Positions 2,497 through 32,615 of a DNA stretch of 32,921 bases are shown here, in pieces. Position numbers and translations under genes: made by a program. The DNA lies in the IMG/VR virus record IMGVR_UViG_3300025131_000230, positions 1 through 32,921 of that record. One strand, given 5' to 3'. Source of the stretch: a virus. Each line of letters starts with the position of its first letter. Within the stretch, counting starts at the first letter, position 1. The notes beneath the pieces are model-generated. The model was not told where the DNA came from and ran no database searches. It worked only from the letters and a program-made list of their open reading frames with translations.

Positions 2497-3801
2497 ATGA
2501 TTATACAAGGTGACTGTTTAAAAAAACTAAAAGAGTTAGAAGAAAATTCTATTGATTCAATAGTTACCGACCCACCCTACGGGCTTTCTTTTATGGGAAA
2601 GAAGTGGGATTATGATGTACCTAAAGTAGAGATTTGGAAAGAGTGCCTTAGGGTATTAAAACCTGGTGGGTACTTACTAGCTTTTGCTGGTACTCGTACT
2701 CAACATAGAATGGCAGTAAATATAGAAGATGCAGGATTTGAGATAAGAGATATGATTGCTTGGGTGTATGGTAGTGGCTTTCCTAAAAGTCATAACATAG
2801 GTAAAGCAGTTGATAAGATGTTAGGAGCAGAAAGAAAAGTTGTCGGAATGCGTAACCCAAATCGTGATAATTCAATAAGAAAACTTAGAGTCTATGAAGG
2901 TATTGGAGGAGAAGGTAAACAGGGATTAGCAGAAAAGAAGTGCGGTGGCTTAGTAGAAATTACCGAACCCTCAACCCAAGAAGCTAAAAAATGGGAAGGG
3001 TGGGGTACTGCATTAAAACCTGCACTAGAACCTATTACAGTAGCTCGTAAACCTTTCAGAGGAACAGTAGCAAGTAATGTATTAAAATACGGTACGGGTG
3101 GAATAAATATAGATGGGTGTAGGATAAAACATAATGAACCTGTAAAAACAACAAACAGAAAGCAAAGAAAAGAAGGTTGGAACCCTGATAACTGTGGTTT
3201 CGATAGTACAAAAAACAATACTGCAAGTGCTTCTCCTCAAGGCAGATTTCCAGCTAATTTAATACTAGATGAAGAAGCAGGGAAGATATTAGATAAACAG
3301 AGCGGAGAGAGCAAATCGGGTAAGAATAAATTGAAAAAAGGAACTGGCGGAATTTGGCAAAAGTCATCTGGGTTGCCTTGTGGTCAGGAATATGGTGACA
3401 AAGGCGGTGCGTCTCGCTTTTTCTATTGTGCTAAAGCAAGTAAGAGTGATAGGAACGAGGGATTAGATGGTTTTGAGGAGAAGAACAATAAATTTGGTAA
3501 TCAAAAAAATGGAGAAGATTTGGGCAATGGTTCTGTGAATGATAAATTTACAACACAACCATCTGCTAACAACCACCCAACAGTCAAACCTACTAAGCTA
3601 ATGCAATACCTAGTAAGGCTTGTAACTCCAAAAGACGGAACAGTATTAGACCCTTTTATGGGGTCAGGTTCAACTGGCAAGGCTTGTGTATTAGAAGACT
3701 TTAAATTCATAGGAATAGAAATGGATGAAGAATATTGTAAAATAGCAGAAGCTAGAATTAAACACGTTAAAGATAAACCTAAACAAAAAGAGTTGATATA
3801 A
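2497..3801 (+). CDS. beta-class DNA methyltransferase (N6-adenine or N4-cytosine)
   Basis: The 434-residue protein methylates an exocyclic amine in DNA. Catalytic motif IV is TDPPYG at 24-29. The S-adenosylmethionine motif I, DPFMGSGSTG, is at 385-394, followed by IGIEMDEEYC. This IV-before-I order defines the beta class. Residues 110-350 form the variable region expected to recognise the target. DPPY is commoner in adenine enzymes, but N4-cytosine methylation is possible. No restriction gene lies beside it, so it is likely an orphan used to protect phage DNA or mimic host marks. The gene is AT-rich and lacks an SD site. It follows a perfect hairpin, and an MT-A70 remnant lies 1 kb upstream. 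Confidence 0.9.
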   Translation: MIIQGDCLKKLKELEENSIDSIVTDPPYGLSFMGKKWDYDVPKVEIWKECLRVLKPGGYLLAFAGTRTQHRMAVNIEDAGFEIRDMIAWVYGSGFPKSHNIGKAVDKMLGAERKVVGMRNPNRDNSIRKLRVYEGIGGEGKQGLAEKKCGGLVEITEPSTQEAKKWEGWGTALKPALEPITVARKPFRGTVASNVLKYGTGGINIDGCRIKHNEPVKTTNRKQRKEGWNPDNCGFDSTKNNTASASPQGRFPANLILDEEAGKILDKQSGESKSGKNKLKKGTGGIWQKSSGLPCGQEYGDKGGASRFFYCAKASKSDRNEGLDGFEEKNNKFGNQKNGEDLGNGSVNDKFTTQPSANNHPTVKPTKLMQYLVRLVTPKDGTVLDPFMGSGSTGKACVLEDFKFIGIEMDEEYCKIAEARIKHVKDKPKQKELI

Positions 3802-6353: not shown

Positions 6354-6437
6354 ATGGATATTAACCAAATAGGAGAAGCTACAACTTATGTCATTATAGG
6401 AATTGCCGTAGGTCTAATCCTAAGTAAATTTTTATAG
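6354..6437 (+). CDS. 27-residue membrane peptide
   Basis: This short ORF starts three bases after the previous stop. It encodes a polar N-terminus and one hydrophobic span (YVIIGIAVGLILSKFL). Its stop overlaps the end of the minus-strand internal virion gene by six bases in a tail-to-tail arrangement. No intrinsic terminator is visible between the converging units. Confidence 0.45.
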   Translation: MDINQIGEATTYVIIGIAVGLILSKFL

Positions 6438-9400
6438 ATTCTTTTGTATTTGTCTTCGTATGATGTCTAGCGCAGGTCCAGTCCCAGGTGGAGCCCCAGG
6501 TATCGTTTGCGCTGCAGGCAACACTCTTAACCCAGCCTTAACAGCTGGTTTTGTTTTACCTTCAAAAACTAGATCAAACATAGCTCCTACTACTTCTGCG
6601 ATTTGAGAACCTGTAGGTCCAACTAAGAACTCGGTAGCCGCGTCTTTGGAGTTCCACCTAGAGTCCATTTGTTGTAACAAGCCACCATATAAACCTATAC
6701 CACCCACACCCAATTGATTGTCAATCATTCTTTCAAGTACATCTTCTGGTCTTTCTCTACTACTAAGAAGAGCTTTGACATCTTCTAATGGTTCACCTAT
6801 AACTTGTGATGCTACTAAGTATGTTATTAAAGGAGTTGCATTGCCTTGCCGTAATTCATCTATTATTTCTCTCTTAATAAAATCCCCTTGTTGGAAGGCA
6901 AAAGATTTAAACTGTGTAAAAACCTTGCCATGTGGTGAAGTCCAGAACAATGGTATATCTAACACACCACCTCTAAACTGAGTAGATTTAACTGCCTTCT
7001 GCCCTATTATGTTTAATTTTTCCTGTGAGAATTTCCCATTAGCTATAGCTGTTTTTAATTGGCTTTCATTAATACCAAGTCTGTTGAAGTGCCTTCTGAG
7101 TGTGGCTTGTTTAGGGTTTCTTATTAAAGATTTTAAACTACTTTCTACCCACCCCTGAACCGCCGCAACAGTAGACCGTCTATTAAACCTTTCTATTGAA
7201 GAGAATCCAAACTTTTGTAATGCCGTTTCTGCTATCTTTCCTTCTGCACCAGCTAACTGTTCTATTCTTCTAACCACATCATCAGTAACGCCAGCTAACA
7301 TGGCTTTCTCCTGGATAGTTTCTCTCCCTTCTTTAGTAACGAAATTTTTTAATCCTTTAATGAAGTTTAATGCCCCAAATTCAGTAACTGGATTAACAGT
7401 TTGTCCCAAGTTAGTTATGGCTCCTAATGCTAATTTACCCACTATTTGTGCTGTCCTGAGTGCTAATGATAACTGCTTTCCTGCTACTGCCAACTCTTTA
7501 TTTCCACGATAACGATTCCATATCTCTTGAGCCATACCACTATCGCGTCCCTCGAGCTTAATTCTATTTACCACTTCACTCATTATCTCATTATTTTTAC
7601 CAAACACTTTCGCTTCTTCTAGCCTCTTGCTGATACCGCCAATGAAACTCTTCAATGCTGTAACAGGGTTGGTTTCAAACCCATACTTCTCTAGGTTATC
7701 GAACCCTTCTATTTGAAATGTCCTAGCATTCTCAATACCAGCATAAGATTCTTTGCCAAAGTTTTTCACAAAGTTGTTTAATACACTATTGGCCTGCTTT
7801 GGTGTTAACTGATTCTTGTCCACCATCAAGTTAACCAAGTCTTCTCTATTCTTTAGAAACTTGTTTTTATCTTTTAAGATATGAGGGAAGTGGACCAACG
7901 CCTCACCAATGTCTTTTTCTTTGCCATTAGCTTTATTCTTAATCTTTAGACCCTGATTCCTAGCTTTATCAATTAGTGGTTTAGTAATACTAAAGAACAG
8001 CTTCGTAAATCCTTTCTCTCTATCATTCATGTTGGCGTATCCAGGCAATCGTTTTGGGTTGTTCACTCTCAACCTAAGGCCAGAGTCTAATGCAGACACA
8101 ATATTTTTTAATTCTGATTGATCTAAATTCTTACCCTTATTATCTAGCCCAAGGGATTTTAACCCTCTTAGCATAGCAACTTCTCCTCTACCTATCGCCC
8201 TGTCTGTATTTTCTACCACAGTATCTATCATTTTAGACATCTTCTTACCACCATCTCCTAGTTTGCCCAACTGTGTTCTGACACTATTGGTCCATCCTCT
8301 TAGCCCTTGTATAATCTTTTCCTTTTTAGATGGGTCGGCTGCGAACCTAGGGGCATTCGGTAAGTCTAAAAATTCTCTTACTTGTTGCTGCGGTTTAATG
8401 AGTTTTTTCATACCCTGCAAATCGTCAGCAGACAATGAAAGTATCCTTCCATTAACATCTTTTCCAAGCACATTAAACTCACCTGTTGAGTCTAATAAGA
8501 ATGACTTGACTTTAAATCTACCTTTGTCTTTGCTAAATATTTCATCACCGATATTGACACCCTTAATAGCTGTCTTTATTCTTTCCTTTCTAATCTTTTC
8601 TAACTTTAATAATTTAGACTCCTGCTTTTTAGCTTCTTTTTCTATTAGCCTTTTTTGTTTTCCAAACCCAGTTACATTAGACAATAATTTTTTTGATTTT
8701 CTAAACTGTTCTTGCGAGAAAATATCTTCTATCCTGTTCTCTGTTTTTCTAATATTGCCGTTCAACATCACAAGTTTTTTTCTTAACTTAGATTGTCTTT
8801 CATTTATTTCTTTGGTTGTTTTTCTTTCAAATGCTGCAAGTTTTTTATCAATTTCCTTTTGTTGTTTTGCAAATGTAATTTTATTCTTTCTTAGTTTATT
8901 TACACTAATGAGGTTTCCACTAGGGCTAAAGAGTTTTAATCTAGCCCTACTACCCGCTAATAGTTTTTGTTCTAATTTAACTAAGTCATTTAATTGTTTA
9001 TCAAAGATACTCTTGGTTTCCAGTTTTTTCATTATACCACTTTTTTCTTTAGCAAATTTACCGAGCGTTTTTTCCAAATTACTTATGCGTTTGGTTACAA
9101 GTTGTGGTGTTTTAGGAAGAGATAAATTTGTTTGTGGAGTAGACAATATTTTATTTTCACTATCCACAGTTTTTTTCATTTGCTCATTTATTCTTTTTTC
9201 TAATCCTTCCATTCTTAGTTTAACTGCTGGCTTGGTTTTTGCCTTTGCGGTTGGTTTTGCGATGTCTCTAACAATGGGGAGTACTGTTTCTCCTGTTGGT
9301 TTCTTTATTTTCCCTATTAGTTTCAGTGGCTGTTTTAAAACAAACCCCAACCCCTTACCAACCAACGGGAACCCAGCCCCTAGAATGCCACCACCTACAC

Positions 9401-9941
9401 CACCAATCAATCCTCCAATTCCTATATCTGCTGCTATCTCACCTAATGATTTATTTTCTTGCGCGGCTCTTCCGCCCATAGAAGCACTACCTACCACAAG
9501 ACCAGTCTTTGTTCCAGTCTTTAGCCCTTGTTTTGCTAATCCCTTTAGGGATTGTTTTATAACCTGTGCTCCTCCTCCGCCCCCAGCTAAGGTCGAACCA
9601 ATATCAGAACCAAATCCTAATATTTTCTTTGCTGCTTCCCCAGTTCTTTCTTTGCCTGTAAAAGCTGGCCTTGTTTTACCTAAAAATGGCAGGTCTCTAG
9701 GCTGCGCAATGTCTTCTTCCCCTCCGCTTCTAAGTGTTTTAAACAAGTTAAATGTAGATACACCTGTTCTTGCAAATGGCTTAGCAATGTCTTTCAAAAT
9801 CTCTTCAACTACTGATGAATCACGTGTGGGAACAATGATTTGTGGTGATGTTCCTCCTTGCCCATTAGAGTCTCTCACCACCAAGCCACCCCTTTTTCGT
9901 GTAGCCTGTTTTTTTTCTTGGGCTGTTACTCTTAATGGCAT
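6432..9941 (-). CDS. large internal virion (ejection-type) protein
   Basis: The protein has 1169 residues, the largest in the window. The N-terminal 120 residues are basic and low in structure. A Gly/Ile/Leu-rich stretch at 172-200 (GIGGLIGGVGGGILGAG) could insert in membranes. Residues from about 240 to 460 are Lys/Glu-rich and look like long coiled coils. The last 270 residues are a globular region resembling C-terminal domains of large phage internal proteins. Position at the 3' end of the late operon, size and makeup fit a podovirus protein carried in the capsid and ejected with DNA. A tape-measure role is less likely because no tail-tube genes are present. The start is in the ATATG context. 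No lysozyme or transglycosylase motif was seen. Confidence 0.6.
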   Translation of the reverse strand: MPLRVTAQEKKQATRKRGGLVVRDSNGQGGTSPQIIVPTRDSSVVEEILKDIAKPFARTGVSTFNLFKTLRSGGEEDIAQPRDLPFLGKTRPAFTGKERTGEAAKKILGFGSDIGSTLAGGGGGAQVIKQSLKGLAKQGLKTGTKTGLVVGSASMGGRAAQENKSLGEIAADIGIGGLIGGVGGGILGAGFPLVGKGLGFVLKQPLKLIGKIKKPTGETVLPIVRDIAKPTAKAKTKPAVKLRMEGLEKRINEQMKKTVDSENKILSTPQTNLSLPKTPQLVTKRISNLEKTLGKFAKEKSGIMKKLETKSIFDKQLNDLVKLEQKLLAGSRARLKLFSPSGNLISVNKLRKNKITFAKQQKEIDKKLAAFERKTTKEINERQSKLRKKLVMLNGNIRKTENRIEDIFSQEQFRKSKKLLSNVTGFGKQKRLIEKEAKKQESKLLKLEKIRKERIKTAIKGVNIGDEIFSKDKGRFKVKSFLLDSTGEFNVLGKDVNGRILSLSADDLQGMKKLIKPQQQVREFLDLPNAPRFAADPSKKEKIIQGLRGWTNSVRTQLGKLGDGGKKMSKMIDTVVENTDRAIGRGEVAMLRGLKSLGLDNKGKNLDQSELKNIVSALDSGLRLRVNNPKRLPGYANMNDREKGFTKLFFSITKPLIDKARNQGLKIKNKANGKEKDIGEALVHFPHILKDKNKFLKNREDLVNLMVDKNQLTPKQANSVLNNFVKNFGKESYAGIENARTFQIEGFDNLEKYGFETNPVTALKSFIGGISKRLEEAKVFGKNNEIMSEVVNRIKLEGRDSGMAQEIWNRYRGNKELAVAGKQLSLALRTAQIVGKLALGAITNLGQTVNPVTEFGALNFIKGLKNFVTKEGRETIQEKAMLAGVTDDVVRRIEQLAGAEGKIAETALQKFGFSSIERFNRRSTVAAVQGWVESSLKSLIRNPKQATLRRHFNRLGINESQLKTAIANGKFSQEKLNIIGQKAVKSTQFRGGVLDIPLFWTSPHGKVFTQFKSFAFQQGDFIKREIIDELRQGNATPLITYLVASQVIGEPLEDVKALLSSRERPEDVLERMIDNQLGVGGIGLYGGLLQQMDSRWNSKDAATEFLVGPTGSQIAEVVGAMFDLVFEGKTKPAVKAGLRVLPAAQTIPGAPPGTGPALDIIRRQIQKNL

Positions 9942-17047: not shown

Positions 17048-17554
17048 TTACCCTATACGTTCAATTAATATTTGTGCTGCTACTGGAGTATCTAGGTTAC
17101 CTTCACCCTTCCATTGGGAAGTGTTACTATCTGTTCTTCCTTGTAGTGTGATGTAGTCATTAGCTGCTAGATCTGCGATGATAGTCACTGAAATTGAGAA
17201 AGCATAACTAGTGTGAGTTGATTCGGGGGCACCACTACCGACCAACTCAGTAGTGCCATTTTTTATCAGTCTTGTGTAGGTAGTATGAATACTGTTGTCA
17301 CAGAATCCATTCACCATATAAGATATTTTGTATTTACCTGCTAAGTCTACTGCTACTCTTTCAGGGTTAGTTCCTGTGTCGTGAGTAACATTAACTTTAA
17401 CCACACTACCACCAGTAAACTCGGTGTCAGTCCACCCAGTACTTTCGATACCAGATAGGTCAGCTGTCCTGTAAATGAACCCGTAAACAGACTCTTGTAC
17501 AGAACTTTGCCCATTGATGATTAAATCATCATTTTCTATTCCTGTTTTTGCCAT
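17048..17554 (-). CDS. jelly-roll (C1q/TNF-like) fibre or decoration protein
   Basis: The protein has 168 residues and is all beta. The phrases 'AGKYKISYMVNGF' and 'TTYTRLIKNGTTELVGSG' followed by 'ADLAANDYITLQGR' are typical of C1q-like jelly-roll domains at fibre tips and on capsid decorations. Such domains usually trimerise and bind surfaces. It is the third of three fibre-like genes in a row. Confidence 0.6.
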   Translation of the reverse strand: MAKTGIENDDLIINGQSSVQESVYGFIYRTADLSGIESTGWTDTEFTGGSVVKVNVTHDTGTNPERVAVDLAGKYKISYMVNGFCDNSIHTTYTRLIKNGTTELVGSGAPESTHTSYAFSISVTIIADLAANDYITLQGRTDSNTSQWKGEGNLDTPVAAQILIERIG

Positions 17555-19230: not shown

Positions 19231-19347
19231 TTAAGATTCTTTAATTAATATTTGTTCATCATGTCCTGAGCCATCATCGTCTACGGCTAGAACAATTATG
19301 TCACCATCTTCATCTACAGAAGAGGGTATTATTATTTTTGTTCCCAT
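19231..19347 (-). CDS. 38-residue acidic protein
   Basis: A short ORF in the ATATG start context lies between GT2 (one base away) and the first fibre gene. The sequence is highly acidic (VDEDGDIIVLAVDDDGSG). The Asp-rich DEDGD and DDDGSGHD could bind calcium, but this is a guess from composition. Confidence 0.45.
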   Translation of the reverse strand: MGTKIIIPSSVDEDGDIIVLAVDDDGSGHDEQILIKES

Positions 19348-19348
19348 A

Positions 19349-19990
19349 TTATAAATAGTTAACTTTTAATCCGTGTGATATATCTTGTAGTCTTTCGTTA
19401 TGAAAGATTGAGTCTCTTAATCCTTGGTAAGGATGTTCCATCATCTCATTATGAGATAAAGCAATAGCCTCATTACCATTAAGACACTTAACTTTATAAC
19501 CAGCATTTACTGCTCTCATACCTACGTTGACATTATCAAACCCCCACTGTCTATCTAGCTCTTCATCGAAACCCCCTATTTCGAACATAGCTTTTCTTGG
19601 GGCGCTCCCCCAATCTATTTCCCATTCCATAAAATTACAGTCATCCATTGGTGTTCGGTATAATCTCCAGTCCCAGTGTATATCTTTGTTATTCAGAGTT
19701 TGTCCTACTGGAGCTGTCCAAAACATCTGTGGATAATCTGTGTATGCTTCCCAAAATTTTTCTAAACCTCTTGTATCTATTGAAATAAAGTCTTGTAAAA
19801 ACACCAGTAATTCTCCTTTAGATTCTTTTATCATTCTATTCATTGCTTGATTGAAATCTGGTGGTTCACTTGGATCGTGTTCTTCTACCAACCATTCAAA
19901 ATCTTTCAAGGTTTGCTTGGCAAGACTTTCTTTGGGTCTCTTCAACCCTTCTTCCCCCCTAATTGTTGGTGTTAAAACACTTATCTTCAT
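19349..19990 (-). CDS. GT2-type (GT-A fold) glycosyltransferase
   Basis: The protein has 213 residues. The opening MKISVLTPTIRGEEGLKRP and 'SLAKQTLKDFEWLVEEHD' match the nucleotide-sugar half of GT2 enzymes. 'LLVFLQDFISID' occupies the place of the DXD metal motif, with QDF instead of DxD, so metal binding may be altered. 'GGFDEELDRQWGFDNVNVGMR' matches the acceptor and catalytic base region. The donor is probably a nucleotide sugar; the acceptor is unknown. It is the last gene of the glycan cassette. Confidence 0.75.
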   Translation of the reverse strand: MKISVLTPTIRGEEGLKRPKESLAKQTLKDFEWLVEEHDPSEPPDFNQAMNRMIKESKGELLVFLQDFISIDTRGLEKFWEAYTDYPQMFWTAPVGQTLNNKDIHWDWRLYRTPMDDCNFMEWEIDWGSAPRKAMFEIGGFDEELDRQWGFDNVNVGMRAVNAGYKVKCLNGNEAIALSHNEMMEHPYQGLRDSIFHNERLQDISHGLKVNYL

Positions 19991-19996
19991 ATTCTT

Positions 19997-20932
19997 CTAA
20001 CATATAGATAATATTCCTTCTTTAAGTTGATTTGCGTATACTCTCTCAGAGTAATGCTTCTTCACCCAATCTCTGCTATTGATTTCTTTATCTTTCCACT
20101 TATCCACAGCCTTACGGATGTCCACTGCTCTTGGTGGGACAATCTCTCCAGTACCACCTTTCTCAAGAAACTCTGAAGTCTTATCTGAATCTCTCATAGT
20201 TATTACTGGGACGTTACAGGATAGTGCTTCTAGTACTGTTCTTTGGCTACCACCTTGTCCTGTTGATGTTATGACACAGGTCTTACCCATGTTATATATC
20301 AATGCCGTTGATTCTGCCCATTGATGATGTAACATCGCTACACCATACTTCTGACATTCTGTTACTGGGTTAGTTTCTGTTGGGTGCCAATACCCACAAG
20401 CTAATCCTTTTGGACCCATCGCCTCACCAAACAGTTCGTGTCTTTTCCATCCTGCCATAGTAGCTGGGAAGACTGCGTCAAAGATCTTTGGTTGTGGCAT
20501 TGGTCTAAAAAGTTCTGTGTTGGTTCCAAATGCTAGTCTGGTGTTTAAACCTCTTTCTCTAAATGCATTCAGGTAACATTCTGACTCTACAAAGACTATA
20601 TCTGCTACATCTTCATAGTCTCTAAAGTCTCCACCTGAGTATGCTTGTCCCATAGGGATACCACATCCCTTGAACTGTCCTAATATAGGTCTACTAAAAT
20701 CTGCAAAGAATAGTATCGCATCTGGTTTCCATCTCATTACTGCTCCGTGTGGGTCTGGGCTGAAGTTCAACTCAACACACGGGTGTTCAAATTGAAACGT
20801 ACTATCATGCTTTTTAAAAAACTTTACTTCCCATTCTTCTCCTAAAACTTGGAGAGCTTTTAAAAATCCATCTTGGTTGTAGAAGACTGCTGACTTCTTG
20901 TCAAACCAGTCATTGGCTATTGCTAACTTCAT
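19997..20932 (-). CDS. GT4-like (GT-B fold) glycosyltransferase
   Basis: The protein has 311 residues. Two Rossmann-like halves are suggested. The donor site region reads 'STGQGGSQRTVLEALSCN' followed by 'VPVITMRDSDKTSEFLEKGG', as in GT4 enzymes, with E in VLEAL at the usual glutamate position. The protein is shorter than most GT4 members (about 350-400), mainly in the N-terminal half. The gene overlaps the preceding 73-residue gene by four bases. Confidence 0.7.
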   Translation of the reverse strand: MKLAIANDWFDKKSAVFYNQDGFLKALQVLGEEWEVKFFKKHDSTFQFEHPCVELNFSPDPHGAVMRWKPDAILFFADFSRPILGQFKGCGIPMGQAYSGGDFRDYEDVADIVFVESECYLNAFRERGLNTRLAFGTNTELFRPMPQPKIFDAVFPATMAGWKRHELFGEAMGPKGLACGYWHPTETNPVTECQKYGVAMLHHQWAESTALIYNMGKTCVITSTGQGGSQRTVLEALSCNVPVITMRDSDKTSEFLEKGGTGEIVPPRAVDIRKAVDKWKDKEINSRDWVKKHYSERVYANQLKEGILSIC

Positions 20933-21150
20933 ATGTCGTTTTTAAACCAATCTCCTAAATTATTTAATGCTTGATTGAAACCATCTCTCCATTCATCTAT
21001 CTCGTGTATGTCATGCAAAACTATTTTTAGATTTCTAAAGTGGATAGTCACTTCGTCATTCGGAGAACGATATACTCGTACTCGGTTAGCGTTTCTATCG
21101 GGGCTATCCGATATTAACGTGTCGTGATATGTTTCTGATACTTTACCCAT
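20929..21150 (-). CDS. small protein of the glycan cassette, unknown
   Basis: The protein has 73 residues with a beta-rich start and a C-terminal amphipathic helix (EWRDGFNQALNNLGDWF). No Cys, membrane span or known motif. Its overlap with the GT4 gene suggests that the two products are made together. A small partner or regulator of the enzyme is possible. Confidence 0.5.
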   Translation of the reverse strand: MGKVSETYHDTLISDSPDRNANRVRVYRSPNDEVTIHFRNLKIVLHDIHEIDEWRDGFNQALNNLGDWFKNDI

Positions 21151-21151
21151 A

Positions 21152-21721
21152 TTACTTTATGCTTTTAACAGCTTCCGCTAACTTTATAAAGTCTTCTCTT
21201 CCTAATGTTAATCTGTACTTACCACATGTCCCCCAGTGAACATGGATAGTTTCAGCTACTTCTATTCTTAAACCATCTCCGTTTGGACTCTTGAATAAAA
21301 ACTTGGTGTCTTCATATTCTTTCTCTCCTTCATCACCTTCATATAATTTAAAATCTTCTTTGGGTTGTCCGCCCTTCCAGCATCTCATCTTAGAATCTTG
21401 GAAATCGTATAGACGTTGTTCAACCATCTCCTCTTGTGTACACACAAAGGCTTCTATCACGTCGTATTTGAGCTCTGAGTGTGCCATACAGCGTTTAAAA
21501 CCATCTAGACGTGTATAACCCCCACTTCCGTCTTCAGCGACTAATACGGGCAATATCTTCATTCCTTTTTTTAAAATCTCTTTGATGTGTCCGATGCCTT
21601 CAACATGCTCTTCGGTGGACTTTCCATCTCTGGCTTCATCCACTTCCCAACCATTCTCAGTCTCATAGTGCATCTCATCAAATATCTTTATTTTTTTAAT
21701 TGGTATCCATCTGCGCTTCAT
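21152..21721 (-). CDS. ParB/sulfiredoxin-fold-like protein
   Basis: The protein has 189 residues. The N-terminal 110 ('WIPIKKIKIFDEMHYETENG', then 'HIKEILKKGMKILPVLVAED' and 'GYTRLDGFKRCMAHSELKYD') follow the ParB/Srx pattern: a strand, a helix that searches for a set of positions, and a G-x-x-R/K-x-x-A motif. ParB-like domains bind or hydrolyse nucleotides, and some modify sugars or amino acids. The C-terminal half is beta-rich with no match. Set among glycosyltransferases and not beside partition genes, it is more likely an enzyme than a segregation protein. It overlaps the next gene by four bases. Confidence 0.5.
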   Translation of the reverse strand: MKRRWIPIKKIKIFDEMHYETENGWEVDEARDGKSTEEHVEGIGHIKEILKKGMKILPVLVAEDGSGGYTRLDGFKRCMAHSELKYDVIEAFVCTQEEMVEQRLYDFQDSKMRCWKGGQPKEDFKLYEGDEGEKEYEDTKFLFKSPNGDGLRIEVAETIHVHWGTCGKYRLTLGREDFIKLAEAVKSIK

Positions 21722-22476
21722 AGTTTTACTTTACCATCTACGACTACGTAGTTTTGACTAAAATTAAATGTGTGTGTTCCTATTAACCCTGGTTTCCAAA
21801 TACTTATCTCTCCCACTATTCTTTCTTTGTAATCCTTAGAAAGGTCTAGCTCTTTAAACAATACTCCTGAGCCGTAACCATCATTGTTGTTTTGGACTGG
21901 TCTGATCAGGCAACCATCTTGTATGAATGGTTTACCAGCAGAGCGAGAGTTCTTTAGAATCATTTGTCTGTGCATCTCCCAGCCTTCTAATAAGTGGTTA
22001 GACTTCATTATAAACAGATTATCATCTCCGTTTATAGTGGTGAACAACCACCATTTACCTGCATATTTTATTATTGACGTATCTCCACAACTACCACCTT
22101 TGTGTAGAACAGTTACTAGTTCCCACTTATCTGGAAACTGGGTACACTTATAGACTTCTATTGTGCCATTGATACCTGTCTCTGGTACTATGTAGAGTTC
22201 TCCTTCATCTTCTATTAAGTGTGGAAATGACATATGATAGTCTCGCTCTATAATAGTCCTAGGTGTTGGGTCATCTAATGTCATGTAGGCTATCTTGCCT
22301 TTGTTGTAATCGTAATCCTCAAAAAAGATATATGTTTTATCATCCCTTTCATAAATGAATGGGTCAGCGTGATATGTATCTTTGGGTGGTTCAATTATCG
22401 TAAGACCATCCGTACTAAATAAGTCTGTTCCCTTCTTCTTGTATGCTATGAACCACTTGTTATTTTTAGGCTTCAT
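21718..22476 (-). CDS. GINT1-N-like beta-propeller protein (sugar transfer associated)
   Basis: The protein has 252 residues. It carries the family series 'YHADPFIYERDDKTYIFFED', 'KGKIAY', 'HMSFPHLIEDEGELYIVPE', 'GDTSIIKYAGKWWLFTT', 'EGWEMH' and 'SAGKPFIQDGCLIRPVQ', ending with YGSGV. This is the five-bladed propeller seen at the N-terminus of glucosamine inositolphosphorylceramide transferases and in bacterial formyltransferase-linked proteins of surface polysaccharide loci. Here it stands alone, so it may bind or process a glycan. Asp in HADPF and Glu in IVPE sit at positions like the active residues of GH43/GH68 propellers. Confidence 0.65.
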   Translation of the reverse strand: MKPKNNKWFIAYKKKGTDLFSTDGLTIIEPPKDTYHADPFIYERDDKTYIFFEDYDYNKGKIAYMTLDDPTPRTIIERDYHMSFPHLIEDEGELYIVPETGINGTIEVYKCTQFPDKWELVTVLHKGGSCGDTSIIKYAGKWWLFTTINGDDNLFIMKSNHLLEGWEMHRQMILKNSRSAGKPFIQDGCLIRPVQNNNDGYGSGVLFKELDLSKDYKERIVGEISIWKPGLIGTHTFNFSQNYVVVDGKVKL

Positions 22477-23077
22477 ATAATCTTTTGTATACCCCTTTTT
22501 CTACCAGTAAATCTGGTTCTTTATCGGGGTTGTTCTTAACCTCTTCAGGAACATACATCCACTTATACTTTGTGATTGGGTGTTCCTTCCTAGACTTAAC
22601 GAGTTCTCTCCAAGTTCCTCTATCTCCTCCACCTAAGTCGAGAAAATCTATGTTACCTTCTATAGCAGTTTGTATCAGATTAAACCACATATATTTTCCC
22701 ATGTACCTTTTACTGTACATCTGCTTGTCGTACATAGGGGGGTGGCATTCCACATAAGTTCCGTATTGCTCTACGAAGTGCAACGCTATGTAGCCAATAT
22801 TGTCTGCGGCTACGAAACATCTCAGCACATTTCTTTCGTCTAGCTCATCTAGATAACCTATGCCAAACCCCCACTTCCTTTTTTTACCTCTTATTAATTG
22901 TTCTTCCCACATATCCATGTAGGCTTTTACTAAATTCCTGTCATATGGTACCTCTATGTATTCCAAATCTTTATTAACTTTTTTTACATACTTATAGTTC
23001 TTCTTGGCAGCTTTGCCTAGACTAGATATGTACTCTTCAAAGCTCTTTAGATTTGTTTCTACTAATAGAGGTGTCAT
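22466..23077 (-). CDS. GNAT/FemAB-like acyltransferase
   Basis: The protein has 203 residues. 'SLGKAAKKNYKYVKKVNKDL' is the basic helix found near the N-terminus of CelD/FemAB-like GNAT proteins. 'VLRCFVAADNIGYIALHFVE' and 'YMWFNLIQTAIEGNIDFLDL' followed by GGGDRG resemble the second GNAT half, where the acyl donor binds. These enzymes usually acylate amino sugars or add amino acids. ATG at 23077 overlaps the upstream stop as ATGA. The preceding in-frame codons are basic and within the neighbouring gene. Confidence 0.65.
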   Translation of the reverse strand: MTPLLVETNLKSFEEYISSLGKAAKKNYKYVKKVNKDLEYIEVPYDRNLVKAYMDMWEEQLIRGKKRKWGFGIGYLDELDERNVLRCFVAADNIGYIALHFVEQYGTYVECHPPMYDKQMYSKRYMGKYMWFNLIQTAIEGNIDFLDLGGGDRGTWRELVKSRKEHPITKYKWMYVPEEVKNNPDKEPDLLVEKGVYKRLYEA

Positions 23078-23481
23078 ACATAATATCCTACGCCTTCGTC
23101 TACACATCTTACTGGAGGTTGCCAGTCAAGAAATGCTTTTTTAAGTTCATCGCTATATATACCGCCCTTATGAACAACATCGTGGTAGTACAGTGAAAGA
23201 AAGTATGCTTGTCTTGATGGGATTTTAAACCCATTAAACTCTCTCTTGTCCTGTAATAGCATTGAGTTGATTTCATCTGGGTAGTACCTATCTGTTGCAG
23301 AGCGTACATCTACTAAGTCGTAACCTTTGCAGATTATCTCTACCTCATCCCTATCTTCCTCAGAACAAAATAGATCTACGTCTTCATGTCCTGGAACCAA
23401 ACCTTCTGGATAACTCTGCCAATTCCTCTGAACTACATAATCAAATGGTTCTAATTCTTTAGCGAGTTGTTTTAAATCCAT
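23074..23481 (-). CDS. nucleotidyltransferase-fold-like protein
   Basis: The protein has 135 residues. 'GLVPGHEDVDLFCSEEDRDE' resembles the G-[ST]-x-D-x-D core of minimal nucleotidyltransferases, and 'ATDRYYP' could supply the later strand. 'YFLSLYYHDVVHKGG' is a conserved-looking helix also found in proteins of polysaccharide loci. The protein may activate or move a sugar phosphate. The absence of the usual Ser after Gly makes the assignment tentative. Confidence 0.4.
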   Translation of the reverse strand: MDLKQLAKELEPFDYVVQRNWQSYPEGLVPGHEDVDLFCSEEDRDEVEIICKGYDLVDVRSATDRYYPDEINSMLLQDKREFNGFKIPSRQAYFLSLYYHDVVHKGGIYSDELKKAFLDWQPPVRCVDEGVGYYV

Positions 23482-23482
23482 A

Positions 23483-23641
23483 CTATTTCTTTTTTGCTTT
23501 CTTCTTTGGTGCTTTCTTTACTTCTTCTAATTCACCTTTTTCTAAACGAACTGTGACTGACTCGCTGTCCATTTCTACAACGTCTCCTTTTTGGTGACCT
23601 TCTCCCCACTCGCCACCTAATACTTTATACATTGGACTCAT
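23483..23641 (-). CDS. small protein with Lys-rich tail
   Basis: The protein has 52 residues. The first 40 form a short beta domain (KVLGGEWGEGHQKGDVVEMD) that recalls small SH3-like or KOW-like folds. The tail is KKAPKKKAKKK. It starts one base after the stop of the GT2-TPR-GT4 gene region and has no SD site. Function is unknown. Confidence 0.5.
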   Translation of the reverse strand: MSPMYKVLGGEWGEGHQKGDVVEMDSESVTVRLEKGELEEVKKAPKKKAKKK

Positions 23642-23642
23642 A

Positions 23643-25910
23643 TTATTTGAACATTATATCCCACTGGTCTGCTACTCTTGCCCAGGTACACTCTGTCAGT
23701 GCATAGGTTGTCATCTCAGACCTGTCGTCTAGTGGGTTTGTTAATTTATTAACGACTTCTTTTATGTATTCTTTTTGAACTTTTTTGTTTGTATATATAT
23801 CATTTATGCTATAAACCTTACCGTGCTTAACCCTTTCCTCTAATGCAGCTACGTTAGTAGTTACTGGATATGCTCCACCTGCTTGAGCCTTATCTGCTGT
23901 GATGCAGTAAATCTCTGTAAACTCGGTAGGGTATGTCCATAGGTTGGCTTCCTGGTATTTCTTTGCGATAGTTAAATGATCTACTCTTCCTTCATCGTAC
24001 ACTCCATCTTGGTCTAACAATCCACAGATATATTTCTTCCAATCTCTTTTGGCTTGGTTGCCATCGTGTAGCTTATCAAAAGTCTGCCAGCCATAGAACC
24101 AGTGTAGTTCTGCTTTAGGAGCTTTCTTCTTAATCTCTGGCCACATCTTTAGTAGACACTCAAGACCCCTATCAGGAGCAGAAGTAAAAATACAATAATT
24201 AGGATTCTTCTTAACATCTGATTTGAAATGTTTAGGATTAATACCGTTACCACTCAAGATGAATTTATCATCTGGAATACTTGGGTATAGTGAACGGTGA
24301 TAGTCTGAAAGAACGATAACTTTATCTATCTTATCAATATATTGTTTAACTGAATCTTCTGGGTGTGTATCGTGTAGCCATAGGTATTTAGTTTTAACAT
24401 CGAAGTCTATACTAAATATTGATGGCATTCTCCAGCTAATCAAGATATTGAATTTATCTCTTGGGTTAAAATCTGTGTAGTGTTTGTAATGAACTCCGTC
24501 ATACTCTCCAGCTTCAATAGGTCTTCCATAAACTGTTATGTTCCAACCTTTCTTAGCTAGTAGTCTTGAAATATTTATGATGGCTTCTTCACTGCCACCT
24601 ACTCCACCTTTCTCTTCGCTTGTGGGGTCCCATCTAGTTACAGACTTCCCACAGTAGATTGCTATGTCTTTGTCTGTGCAATCTTTCTTTGTACTGAATT
24701 TGTTTTTATCTTTTAATAACTCTGGATACTCTAAGTATTTCTTAGGTATCAGTTTATAAAACTCTTTTGTGTCTAACTCTTTACCTACTTTAATCAGTGC
24801 ATCAACCATATCTGCCTGTTCAATAGCCAGGTTACAGATGTCTATAATCTCTTTGACATCACTGTTTGGCATTGCCTTTTGGTATTCTACGAAATACGGT
24901 TTAGCATCTTTCAAGTTATCTAGGTTAACCAATGTGTGACCGATTAACCAGAATAGGTTAGTGCTATATTCCAATGGGTTAACCACTGGTAGGTTCTCTG
25001 GGTATTCTTTCTTTAGTGCGTCCTTGAAATAGAATAGTGCATCTTTGTATTCACCTTCTTCGTAACTTGCTTTACCTAGGTCTATGTAAGCATCTGGATA
25101 AGATGGTTTCTCTTTGATGGCTAGTAAAGATTGTTCTTTAGCTGCGTCATATTCTCCTAATGCGATTAAAGACATAGCAGAACGATGTCTAGCTAAATAG
25201 ATTTCCTCTGCCCAACCTGATATAGGTATGTACTTCTGATAACAAGCTAATGCTTTCTGATAATTGTCTACTGTGAAGTAAGCATTCCCTAAGTTAAAAA
25301 TAGTTCTAGGGTCTACCTTATCACTGGCTATCTCTTCTTCGGCTGCTCTCTCTAGGATTTCTAGGTTGCGCTGTTTGCTGTCCTCGGCTCTTTCTGGAGA
25401 AGCAAGGTGCACCCAATGCACATTACCCATCCTAATAGCTTTAGCGTCTGCACCAACTGGCAATAAAGCTTCGTGTAGTTTACCAATCCATCTGTAGGTA
25501 TCGTTATTTTTAATGAGCCTTTCTCTGCTTTGTAATACCGTTGTATTACCAAACTTATCTACAGAGTAATGATAAGGGAACATTACTGCGTTCACCTTCT
25601 GCTCATCACACTTTTTCATTAAATCAGCTAGGTTCTCTGCGCCTTCTATCTTATCGTCTGCGTCTGCCCAGAGTAACCAGTCTCCACTGGCTTGTTCAAA
25701 ATTAAATTTCCTTGCTGCTGAGAAATCGTGGCACCATTCAAAGGTACTCCACTTGAGTTTGTCTCCACAGTATTTCTCACAAACTTCTTTTGTTTTGTCT
25801 GTTGAACCAGTATCAGTTATACAAACTTCATCTACATGGTTCACTATGGTTTTGAAAAGAGTGGGGAGGGTTTTCTCCTCATTCTTTGTAATCATACAAA
25901 GTGATAACAT
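23643..25910 (-). CDS. GT2-TPR-GT4 fusion glycosyltransferase
   Basis: The protein has 755 residues and holds two glycosyltransferases in one chain. Residues 1-190 are a GT2 domain: 'MLSLCMITKNEEKTLPTLF', 'ITDTGSTDKT', and WADADD at 81-86 with the metal-binding DxDD. Residues about 200-360 are TPR-like helices (for example 'TIFNLGNAYFTVDNYQKALA' and 'AYIDLGKASYEEGEYKDALF'). Residues about 415-755 are a GT-B domain with 'GGVGGSEEAI' near its start and 'YPTEFTEIYCITADKAQAGG' at the donor site, where D replaces the usual second Glu. The TPR part may hold a protein or the two active sites together. It is the first and largest gene of the cassette. Confidence 0.85.
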   Translation of the reverse strand: MLSLCMITKNEEKTLPTLFKTIVNHVDEVCITDTGSTDKTKEVCEKYCGDKLKWSTFEWCHDFSAARKFNFEQASGDWLLWADADDKIEGAENLADLMKKCDEQKVNAVMFPYHYSVDKFGNTTVLQSRERLIKNNDTYRWIGKLHEALLPVGADAKAIRMGNVHWVHLASPERAEDSKQRNLEILERAAEEEIASDKVDPRTIFNLGNAYFTVDNYQKALACYQKYIPISGWAEEIYLARHRSAMSLIALGEYDAAKEQSLLAIKEKPSYPDAYIDLGKASYEEGEYKDALFYFKDALKKEYPENLPVVNPLEYSTNLFWLIGHTLVNLDNLKDAKPYFVEYQKAMPNSDVKEIIDICNLAIEQADMVDALIKVGKELDTKEFYKLIPKKYLEYPELLKDKNKFSTKKDCTDKDIAIYCGKSVTRWDPTSEEKGGVGGSEEAIINISRLLAKKGWNITVYGRPIEAGEYDGVHYKHYTDFNPRDKFNILISWRMPSIFSIDFDVKTKYLWLHDTHPEDSVKQYIDKIDKVIVLSDYHRSLYPSIPDDKFILSGNGINPKHFKSDVKKNPNYCIFTSAPDRGLECLLKMWPEIKKKAPKAELHWFYGWQTFDKLHDGNQAKRDWKKYICGLLDQDGVYDEGRVDHLTIAKKYQEANLWTYPTEFTEIYCITADKAQAGGAYPVTTNVAALEERVKHGKVYSINDIYTNKKVQKEYIKEVVNKLTNPLDDRSEMTTYALTECTWARVADQWDIMFK

Positions 25911-25919
25911 ATGCGCTGC

Positions 25920-26318
25920 TTAAAGTTTTTTACACATTCGAAAGGCAGGAAACTTTTTGACGAAAGTTTTAATCCTTTTTAACCTGGCTTTCTGAGTTAA
26001 TTCTCTTGCTCCTAAAAAATTAGGGGATAGGACTGATAATAGGCGGTAAAGCCCTTGGGGTAAATCCATTAAGTGTCTAACTGACTTACTCTTACTTGCG
26101 CCAGTATCATTCGCGTTATTTTTGAGGGTGTCTTTTTTGTGCTGCATAAACTCAGCCATATCGTAAGGATTCAGTTGGGTCCATTGTTCGATGTGCTTCC
26201 TTAGCAATTCGTAATCAGGCTCGTTGTCTTTCTCTGCACTCTCGTAAAAAACTTTGAATTTTTCGTTGTCACTGGCTTCCTCCATATGAGCCAGTAATAG
26301 TTTGTTTTCATAATCCAT
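25920..26318 (-). CDS. small protein after the capsid gene, unknown
   Basis: The protein has 132 residues, with an acidic N-terminal half and a strongly basic C-terminal half (KARLKRIKTFVKKFPAFRMCKKL). It is encoded between the major capsid and the glycan cassette. The position suits a head-completion or minor head protein. The start follows a hairpin, and no SD site is present. Confidence 0.5.
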   Translation of the reverse strand: MDYENKLLLAHMEEASDNEKFKVFYESAEKDNEPDYELLRKHIEQWTQLNPYDMAEFMQHKKDTLKNNANDTGASKSKSVRHLMDLPQGLYRLLSVLSPNFLGARELTQKARLKRIKTFVKKFPAFRMCKKL

Positions 26319-26361: not shown

Positions 26362-27273
26362 TTATATTGCTTTTAAGTATCCATCAGCAAAAAATCCAGT
26401 CTTTTCATTTCTGTGTTCGCAGGTTAGGTAACCATTGATAACTGCATCACGAGATGTAGAACGTACACCTTGTTCAGTCATTTTAGCTCCTTCACCATTC
26501 AATTGAGCAACATAAACTTTTTCCATGTTCACACCTAAGATGCGAGCAGTGGCGTCTGTAGATACTTGGATGTATCTGTGTAAGTTTACATTAACTGCAC
26601 CGAAGTCAGATTCGAAAACCTGTACAACTTTACCAGCCATTTTAGCACCTGCATCAATGTTCTTGGTGATTCCAGCTGTGAAAGCAGAAATCTTAGCTTT
26701 TAAGATAGAACCTACTAATAGATCAGTAGGGATTTCACCGTTAGAAGCTTCCCAAGTAAGTTGCAATAGACCTACCAAGATTGATTCACTAAACACTGTA
26801 CCAGAAGTTTGGCTTGTAGAGTTAGTTGAAGTCAATTGGATAAGACCATTCATTCTAGGAACTGTTCCAGATGCACCTGAAATCAAACTACCACGAACTA
26901 AGTCATACTCAGCTGCGTTAGCCCAAGATTTCATTTTCTTAGCAACCTGTCTAGCCCATTCGTTCTCACCACTTTCGTGAGTAACCATTGTTTGTACTTC
27001 AGTTAATGAAGCTGCTTTGTAAACGTGTTGTACCAAGTTTGTACGTAGAGTTGGTACACTCAATGTATCTGGAGTGAAAGCTTTGTACTCGGTAGCAGCA
27101 GCACTTCCAGCAGTATCAAGAGTATCATCTTGCCAACTGTGAATTGTGTTGCGAGCTACAGATTTACGAGAGCCGTTAAGTACCATGTTTTCAACTGGAC
27201 TTAACAATTCAATCTCAGATTGTACGTCACGAACGACACTTGTATCGCCGTAACTTCGTAATTCTGATGCCAT
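26362..27273 (-). CDS. major capsid protein, SU10-like
   Basis: The protein has 303 residues. The N-terminal region ('VRDVQSEIELLSPVENMVL' and 'NTIHSWQDDTLDTAGSAAAT'), the Glu/Gly-rich extension and the spine-like segment 'ANAAEYDLVRGS' match the SU10-type HK97-fold capsid family. Position after the scaffold gene confirms it. Length is normal for the family. The 5' end lacks an SD site (ACAATATG), which is unusual for the most abundant virion protein. A stable hairpin follows the stop. Confidence 0.85.
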   Translation of the reverse strand: MASELRSYGDTSVVRDVQSEIELLSPVENMVLNGSRKSVARNTIHSWQDDTLDTAGSAAATEYKAFTPDTLSVPTLRTNLVQHVYKAASLTEVQTMVTHESGENEWARQVAKKMKSWANAAEYDLVRGSLISGASGTVPRMNGLIQLTSTNSTSQTSGTVFSESILVGLLQLTWEASNGEIPTDLLVGSILKAKISAFTAGITKNIDAGAKMAGKVVQVFESDFGAVNVNLHRYIQVSTDATARILGVNMEKVYVAQLNGEGAKMTEQGVRSTSRDAVINGYLTCEHRNEKTGFFADGYLKAI

Positions 27274-32038: not shown

Positions 32039-32554
32039 TTATCTTATATCTTTAGGTATTTGTAGTCCTATTATGTTAATGTTTTGTTGTTTATCTTCCA
32101 TTAAACCAGTTATTTTAGCTAATAATTCCCATGCTTTTAGTCTATCTCTGCTATGTTTAGTACTTGTTTCTTTTCTTATACCACTCTTAATAGTATACTT
32201 ATCAGTCATAGCATCAACTTGTTGCTTAATTGTTTCCTTAATAATAGGCTCTTTAAACTTATTACTTGCTATTACCCATAAACTATTACGCTTTAATTCT
32301 TTACTATGCTTTTTACCGTATACTGCTTTATAACATTCAGACATATTACCTAATAATCCCTTACCACCTCTTAAATATAACTCTATTAGTTTTATTTCTT
32401 TAGGTGTTAAATCTCTATTTTGTTTAATAACTTCTTTAGGAATTGTTTTAATTACTTTACCTTGAATAGCCTTGCCTTTCTTTACTGCTTTAGTATAATC
32501 TTTTAAATGTTTATTATTGGGATCTTTTGGTTTTAGTTTAACTTTTTTAATCAT
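32039..32554 (-). CDS. terS: terminase small subunit
   Basis: The protein has 171 residues. The phrases 'LTPKEIKLIELYLRGGKGLL', 'MSECYKAVYGKK', 'WVIASNKFKEPIIKETIKQQ' and 'RDRLKAWELLAKITGLME' match small terminase subunits: HTH-like start, central oligomer helices and a closing LLAKITGL helix. The protein recognises packaging start sites. It is the first gene of the late operon, 5' of the large subunit. ATG at 32554 is preferred; a GTG at 32605 would add 17 residues, and neither has a clear SD site. Confidence 0.8.
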   Translation of the reverse strand: MIKKVKLKPKDPNNKHLKDYTKAVKKGKAIQGKVIKTIPKEVIKQNRDLTPKEIKLIELYLRGGKGLLGNMSECYKAVYGKKHSKELKRNSLWVIASNKFKEPIIKETIKQQVDAMTDKYTIKSGIRKETSTKHSRDRLKAWELLAKITGLMEDKQQNINIIGLQIPKDIR

Positions 32555-32615
32555 ACTGATATGCTTTTTATTGGCTTGTTTTAGTTCTGTATTATAGTTA
32601 TACACAGGTAGTTAC

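Follow-up and report, generated by a model that had tools for sequence, protein, structure and literature searches.

A capsid-linked GT2-TPR-GT4 glycosyltransferase and its exchangeable sugar genes: a possible virion-glycosylation system in a group of phages

To our knowledge, what has been learned by experiment on the glycosylation of phage virions comes mainly from mycobacteriophages. In these phages, virion glycosylation influences immune recognition. According to passages of PMC12619734 and PMC11256854 that refer to Freeman et al. (2023), Che8-type mycobacteriophages carry glycans on capsid and tail-tube subunits. For Maravista, a relative of this type, passages of PMC11256854 place putative glycosyltransferase genes near the 3′ end of the genome. 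Among giant viruses, A111/114R of the chlorovirus PBCV-1 (PMC7826918) and the fibril clusters of Megavirinae (PMC10117803) have been described. On the side of cellular enzymes, GmaR associates a glycosyltransferase and TPRs with a C-terminal anti-repressor domain (PMC3150276). The present study concerns a 32.9-kb virus sequence (IMG/VR record IMGVR_UViG_3300025131_000230; "the window" hereafter means this whole stretch of 32,921 nucleotides). Between its capsid region and its fibre-like gene lies a cassette of nine genes headed by a GT2-TPR-GT4 fusion, called here the core enzyme, which had been picked out as glycan-building from the sequence alone (the original prediction). Such a capsid-linked cassette would be a variant of a known phenomenon, virus-encoded virion glycosylation; a partial search of the literature returned no published description of it.

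A glycosyltransferase gene fixed beside the capsid gene

Sampling relied on an alignment of the major capsid protein (MCP), blind to sugar genes, and viral contigs yielded 54 loci. The viral records are fragmentary; a few loci provided the seeds of the profiles, and the near-identical contigs L002, L003, L005, L009 and L010 were treated as one. The core enzyme gene lies 496-1809 bp downstream of the MCP gene, on the same strand, in all close MCP relatives with enough downstream sequence. These relatives comprise a prophage, a complete circular genome and, once redundancy is removed, about 23 viral records; the GT2-TPR-GT4 profile had matches in 25 of the 46 records searched. The same gene order is observed in the circular complete podovirus MW202524 (ctKR88), from Manatee Spring. 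In one subgroup, the core enzyme gene is split and the C-terminal GT4 part forms a separate open reading frame (ORF). No core enzyme was found beside the MCP gene in distant capsid relatives having several kb of downstream sequence. Because the core enzyme adjoins the capsid gene throughout related phages, this neighbourhood is not due to chance. Furthermore, the tree of the core enzyme parallels that of the MCP (Mantel r 0.80, p 1e-4 by permutation, 24 taxa). The glycosyltransferase genes are thus co-inherited with the virion genes, as seen from their fixed position and the congruent trees. The search for co-occurrence with SU10-type capsid genes that accompanied the original prediction as a check was strongly positive for the core enzyme and for sugar genes as a class. 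The portal of the window has matches to PHROG portal families only; SU10_portal was recognised in 9 upstream proteins of relatives. Another arrangement occurs in MW202497, also from Manatee Spring, where a GT2-TPR gene, a chaperonin gene and a glycosyltransferase gene lie between TerL and portal instead. Chaperonin genes of the Cpn60/TCP-1 family adjoin GT2-TPR enzymes in a Manatee Spring phage (L061:2885-4453) and in a short Taylorbacteria-binned contig (L062:3-1487).

A set of 380 genomes from the phylum Patescibacteria gave two matches to the group. The first, in genome G163, is a 67.8-kb contig made of a phage block, a XerC-like tyrosine recombinase gene and then about 30 kb of chromosomal-looking genes, where gltX-like, peptide-deformylase-like and fmt-like genes were recognised by reading the sequences. 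The phage block contains a TerL-sized gene, a portal gene (3e-40 to that of the window), the MCP gene, a counterpart of orf132 (the small gene between MCP and core enzyme in the window), a GT2-TPR-GT4 gene, a GT4 gene, a DegT-like gene and two GT2-like genes. This apparent prophage corresponds to L085 and L086 (G163:C1:1-40000; recombinase at L086:14088-14975); a 16-base exact search detected neither direct-repeat ends nor attachment-site repeats. The second match is to a phage contig that had been assigned to the bin of a Moraniibacteriota genome. The apparent prophage links the group, not the window itself, to Patescibacteria hosts, whose cells are ultra-small. Integrase profiles had no match in 27 related viral records, so that lysogenic conversion is not a general role.

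In the core enzyme, the GT2 domain (PF00535, 1.2e-19, 71.3 bits for a cut-off of 23.3) and the TPRs (2.4e-12) are recognised by Pfam. The C-terminal GT4 domain has a weak sequence match (6.6e-4) and a clear fold: VIA-align pairs this half with sucrose-phosphate synthase tll1590 and MshA (Z 30), as expected of a GT4-type GT-B fold; these alignments concern the GT-B part and are uninformative on the GT2-TPR half. The nearest PDB sequence for the GT2 domain is GmaR (3.4e-27), followed by SunS (3.8e-8) and ThuS. Pfam, secondary structure and Foldseek all place the GT-A domain directly before the TPR/helical region, an architecture resembling that of GmaR and SunS. The AlphaFold model (pLDDT 86.7, pTM 0.54) displays a GT-A domain, a helical TPR region and a GT-B domain. 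For the model as a whole, the top Foldseek matches are SPINDLY, SunS, ThuS and OGT, each of them a protein or peptide glycosyltransferase linked to TPRs or other helical repeats. The match to SunS (7msp, 293 columns, 3.1 Å, TM 0.71 of the target) is cleaner than those to OGT and SPINDLY, whose full-length matches (TM about 0.3) may be due to common TPR and GT-B parts. SunS and OGT act on peptide or protein acceptors. By analogy with these protein glycosyltransferases, the core enzyme would probably transfer sugar to a protein. It scores far under the NCBIfam equivalog cut-off for SunS-type peptide S-glycosyltransferases (TIGR04195, 34.6 versus 350 bits). The acidic motif D83/D85/D86 of the GT2 domain and E666 of the GT-B domain are invariant in the alignments, and no loss of the active site, a possible objection raised at the outset, was seen in the core enzyme.

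Some further matches lie outside the capsid-linked set. Those in small records named "Listeria phage" were discarded, since they are probably GmaR-type genes of Listeria, and cyanobacterial relatives matched in the GT4 half only. Larger bacterial fusions related to the core enzyme (Granulicella, KSB1, an unclassified bacterium) showed no capsid match; fusions of 1303-1915 aa were noted in Granulicella and an unclassified bacterium (L064:3362-7273, L065:9761-13687, L082:4679-10426).

An exchangeable module of sugar genes

Downstream of the core enzyme, the gene content varies. Pfam families assigned to 115 downstream proteins of the relatives include 13 GT2, further GT-B enzymes, 7 epimerases/dehydratases, several methyltransferases, 3 cytidylyltransferases, 2 aminotransferases (DegT) and 2 PIG-L deacetylases; the L003 cassette adds TOD1, DUF6625 and more GT2 and methyltransferases. 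No glycan enzyme family was matched among 90 upstream proteins of the relatives, and families that handle sugars are strongly enriched in the downstream block. After clustering, 43 of 69 protein clusters are singletons. With the window counted, its separate GT4 gene belongs to a cluster present in 17 loci and its separate GT2 gene to one present in 8 loci. The nucleotidyltransferase-like (NT-like), GNAT, GINT-like and ParB-like genes and orf73 are unique to the window among the sampled loci, and the set of genes listed in the original prediction does not therefore constitute the system. Variable gene content around a constant enzyme rather defines a fixed core with an exchangeable module. A rough hydropathy screen predicted no transmembrane segment for 167 of 173 downstream proteins and at most three in any one protein; neither this screen nor the Pfam families listed disclosed a flippase, an exporter, a polymerase or an initiating phosphoglycosyl transferase among the downstream proteins. 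DNA cytosine methylase genes (PF00145) occur inside some sugar cassettes (L004:13226-14842 and 3 of the 115 scanned proteins).

In the window, the late block is on the minus strand, in the order TerS, TerL, portal, scaffold-like, MCP, orf132, cassette, fibre-like and tail genes; the minus-strand run is uninterrupted from TerS (32039-32605) to a 1169-aa virion protein (6432-9941). The cassette, at 19349-25910, is flanked by the capsid region and the fibre-like gene and holds eight ORFs of at least 60 aa and one of 52 aa, all on the late strand (Table 1). The count of nine genes given in the original prediction is correct, because the 52-aa ORF fills the only apparent gap. The common strand, tight spacing and start style that it described are also observed: genes are separated by 0-9 bp or slightly overlap, nearly all have the T-ATG start context of the head genes, and the GC content, like that of the head genes, does not change at the borders of the cassette. 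Further downstream, a 168-aa protein (17048-17554) matches the BclA C-terminal domain, a trimeric surface-protein fold (PF18573, 3.7e-4, below cut-off).

Table 1. Features of the window from the capsid gene to the end of the cassette, in the order of the late strand
Feature	Position	Strand	Basis or remark
Major capsid protein (MCP)	26362..27273	-	phrog_1328 1.6e-32; anchor of the conserved neighbourhood
Hairpin just past the MCP stop codon	26327..26348	-	9-bp stem, GAAA loop, no T run
orf132, small protein of no assigned function, between MCP and core enzyme	25920..26318	-	Relatives in equivalent place
GT2-TPR-GT4 core enzyme, 755 aa	23643..25910	-	GT-A ~1-170, TPR/helical ~172-404, GT-B ~413-755
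52-aa lysine-rich ORF, between core enzyme and NT-like gene	23483..23641	-	ATG directly after core enzyme stop; open frame
Nucleotidyltransferase-like domain protein, 135 aa	23074..23481	-	Alignment to bacterial polysaccharide-locus proteins
GNAT / FemAB-like acyltransferase	22466..23077	-	Pfam Acetyltransf_6 9.9e-5, above cut-off
GINT1_N-type beta-propeller-family protein	21718..22476	-	PF24793 7.1e-27
Protein of no established family (ParB/sulfiredoxin-like in the original prediction)	21152..21721	-	PHROG ParB E 0.16 only
73-aa ORF (orf73)	20929..21150	-	No family match
GT4-type glycosyltransferase, second most conserved cassette gene	19997..20932	-	Glycos_transf_1 8.4e-7
GT2-type glycosyltransferase, 213 aa	19349..19990	-	Weak Pfam 0.039
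38-aa ORF, fills gap before fibre-like gene, cassette end	19231..19347	-	

Most of the domain assignments first proposed for the cassette are retained. Those of the core enzyme and of the GNAT, GINT-like and GT4 proteins hold by Pfam or fold, the separate GT4 scoring 29.1 bits for a Pfam cut-off of 26.4. The GT2 and NT-like assignments hold by their relatives. The separate GT2 is below the Pfam cut-off (14.3 versus 23.3 bits, PF00535); its relatives include GT2 genes in the cassettes of other phages (up to 6e-22) and of the G163 prophage (8e-23). The NT-like protein has no Pfam match. It can be aligned, at 9.3e-7, to an NT-like domain in proteins of bacterial polysaccharide loci, and retains putative acidic residues, in an HEDVDL motif and at the aspartate of a later VDVRS. 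For the GNAT gene, the start at 23077 (ATGA overlap, 203 aa) is preferred over that at 23107 (213 aa). The ParB/sulfiredoxin assignment is not established, the PHROG ParB match being at E 0.16. Relatives of this protein were found neither in phage records nor in viral contigs, nor in the 380 Patescibacteria genomes, and its family is left unassigned because the AlphaFold model, obtained from one sequence, is unusable (pLDDT 33). Scans of viral contigs with single-protein queries found no relatives of the GINT-like, ParB-like and NT-like genes, nor did tblastn of the NT-like, ParB-like and GNAT proteins against phage records; for the GINT-like gene, there was one match, to an unannotated phage record of 9.6 kb. 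PDB searches with the ParB-like, GNAT and NT-like sequences gave nothing meaningful. As to the objection that the homologues might reside in bacterial capsule loci, the close full-length Patescibacteria relatives of the core enzyme are in phage DNA, whereas the closest bacterial relatives found for the NT-like and GINT-like proteins are in surface-glycan loci: one relative of the GINT-like gene belongs to a nonulosonate-type locus of Patescibacteria that also includes a flippase, and relatives of the NT-like gene adjoin polysaccharide glycosyltransferase and ABC-transporter genes.

The region between the MCP and the core enzyme deserves attention. orf132 of the window matches loci L059, L061 and L063 and the G163 prophage, and the L063 copy has 17 matches in capsid-linked loci. 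Its product may be a decoration or head protein and a possible acceptor. The hairpin following the MCP gene (best folding window -19.9 kcal/mol, z -5.0) has counterparts: with the window counted, z is at most -4 after the MCP in 12 of 26 sequences tested, and several of these hairpins are followed by a T run. Placed between capsid gene and cassette, it might act as an attenuator or be a site of processing. Expression together with the virion genes, as originally proposed, is plausible, but may be attenuated by the strong hairpin, which nearly half of the relatives share with the window. Read-through into the cassette would perhaps be below the capsid level, which would be fitting for enzymes.

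Virion protein or another target

Considering these data, the cassette probably encodes a cytoplasmic system by which the phage glycosylates a protein of its own virion, the exchangeable module setting the glycan. From the gene content, position, conservation, capsid co-inheritance and predicted fold described above, we infer the acceptor, the order of the reactions and the benefit as follows. The conserved enzyme would bind a virion protein via its TPR region. Its GT2 domain would attach the first sugar and its GT4 domain would probably add a second one. The downstream GT4 and GT2 genes would then lengthen the chain, and the interchangeable genes would make or modify terminal sugars, through the NT-like, GNAT, GINT-like and other proteins in the window and through methyltransferases, epimerases, aminotransferases, deacetylases and cytidylyltransferases elsewhere. 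The acceptor would most likely be the MCP or the small protein encoded between MCP and enzyme, the fibre being another candidate. As a result, the particle would carry a glycan coat specific to the strain. A cytoplasmic system acting on particles is favoured because transmembrane proteins are few, an integrase is absent from the related viral records and the enzyme is linked to the capsid.

The original prediction left the choice between decoration of capsid or fibres and rebuilding of the host surface. In the second case, the cassette would remodel the host surface late in infection via lipid-linked or surface glycans, thereby ensuring superinfection exclusion or avoiding re-adsorption to debris. 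The surface-glycan relatives of the GINT-like and NT-like genes would fit such a role, as would the position of the fibre-like gene after the cassette. In passages of PMC12911398, nucleotide-sugar genes of groundwater Patescibacteriota phages are interpreted in this way; together with the relatives of the two accessory genes, this interpretation gives some room to a modification of host lipid-linked precursors. However, the sampled cassettes encode almost no membrane proteins and none of the flippase, polymerase or initiating phosphoglycosyl transferase looked for, the related viral records lack an integrase, and the conserved member is capsid-linked, co-inherited with the capsid and similar to protein glycosyltransferases. 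Decoration of the virion is thus favoured, and remodelling of the host surface appears less likely.

It may also be imagined that the enzymes glycosylate a host protein during infection, for instance a defence, pilus or S-layer protein, since GT2-TPR enzymes such as GmaR modify cellular proteins. This would leave the tight capsid linkage and the large, variable sugar-building module unexplained, and the data indicate no host target; we regard it as improbable. Hypermodification of the phage DNA as a shield against nucleases is still harder to sustain: although DNA-modifying glycosyltransferases of phages exist (cited in passages of PMC12619734) and the window has a DNA methyltransferase gene (2497-3801), no hydroxymethylase, thymidylate-synthase-like or other base-modifying enzyme was recognised in the window, the similarities of the core enzyme are to protein glycosyltransferases and not to those acting on DNA, and the genes sit in the late structural run, not in an early region. 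Finally, the idea that mobile glycan genes merely pass through a permissive site between head and tail genes, with no function as a unit, would agree with the four genes unique to the window and the many singleton clusters, but is very improbable given that the core enzyme holds its position and follows the capsid tree, that downstream genes with a recognised family are mostly sugar-related and co-directional, and that the GT4 gene recurs.

Several considerations weigh against glycosylation of a virion protein. TPR regions are present too in enzymes without protein substrates. The domain arrangement in the model of the core enzyme is uncertain, as indicated by its pTM. The EX7E motif of the GT4 domain is incomplete, its second Glu being replaced by Lys in most members (Glu is found in L025), which renders the activity of this domain less certain. 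With the hairpin after the MCP gene, co-expression at the capsid level is not assured. Moreover, the surface-glycan relatives of the NT-like and GINT-like proteins imply that the accessory chemistry alone cannot separate virion from cell surface.

Taking virion-protein glycosylation as the preferred reading, a broader and more tentative proposal may be formulated. A whole phage lineage, some members of which would infect Patescibacteria, might possess beside its capsid gene a dedicated virion-protein glycosylation system, in which a bifunctional, TPR-guided GT2-GT4 enzyme would prime the shell and a fast-exchanging module would act as a serotype locus of the particle, analogous to the clusters of giant viruses. 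If true, phage glycosylation would be a core property of the particle, with an enzyme as fixed as the capsid gene, and sugar genes in Patescibacteria phages would serve particle decoration, not an "auxiliary metabolism" of the host surface. Such a lineage would also offer a compact, soluble GT2-TPR-GT4 enzyme for study.

Comparison with described systems

The groundwater Patescibacteriota phages are likewise linked to Patescibacteria and carry sugar genes; the passages of PMC12911398 interpret these genes as acting on the host surface and describe no capsid linkage or protein glycosyltransferase. Among characterised enzymes, GmaR, the Listeria flagellin O-GlcNAc transferase and anti-repressor, has an N-terminal GT2 domain followed by TPRs, as in the core enzyme, but ends with its anti-repressor domain where the core enzyme has a GT4 glycosyltransferase. 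SunS and ThuS also combine a GT2 domain with a helical/TPR region and act on a peptide; their substrates are, however, glycocin peptides and they have no GT4 half.

At the level of the virus, giant viruses share with the system proposed here a glycosylation independent of organelles, multidomain fused glycosyltransferases and clade-specific clusters with nucleotide-sugar genes, and chloroviruses use their major capsid protein as the acceptor. On the other hand, their hosts are eukaryotic, their capsids unrelated and their enzymes different. The glycosylated mycobacteriophages, as presented in the passages cited above, resemble the window in being tailed phages with their own glycosyltransferases, with the difference that glycans were measured there and genes alone are considered here. 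Compared with these phages, the group described here is distinguished by one fused enzyme fixed beside the capsid gene and followed by a long exchangeable module.

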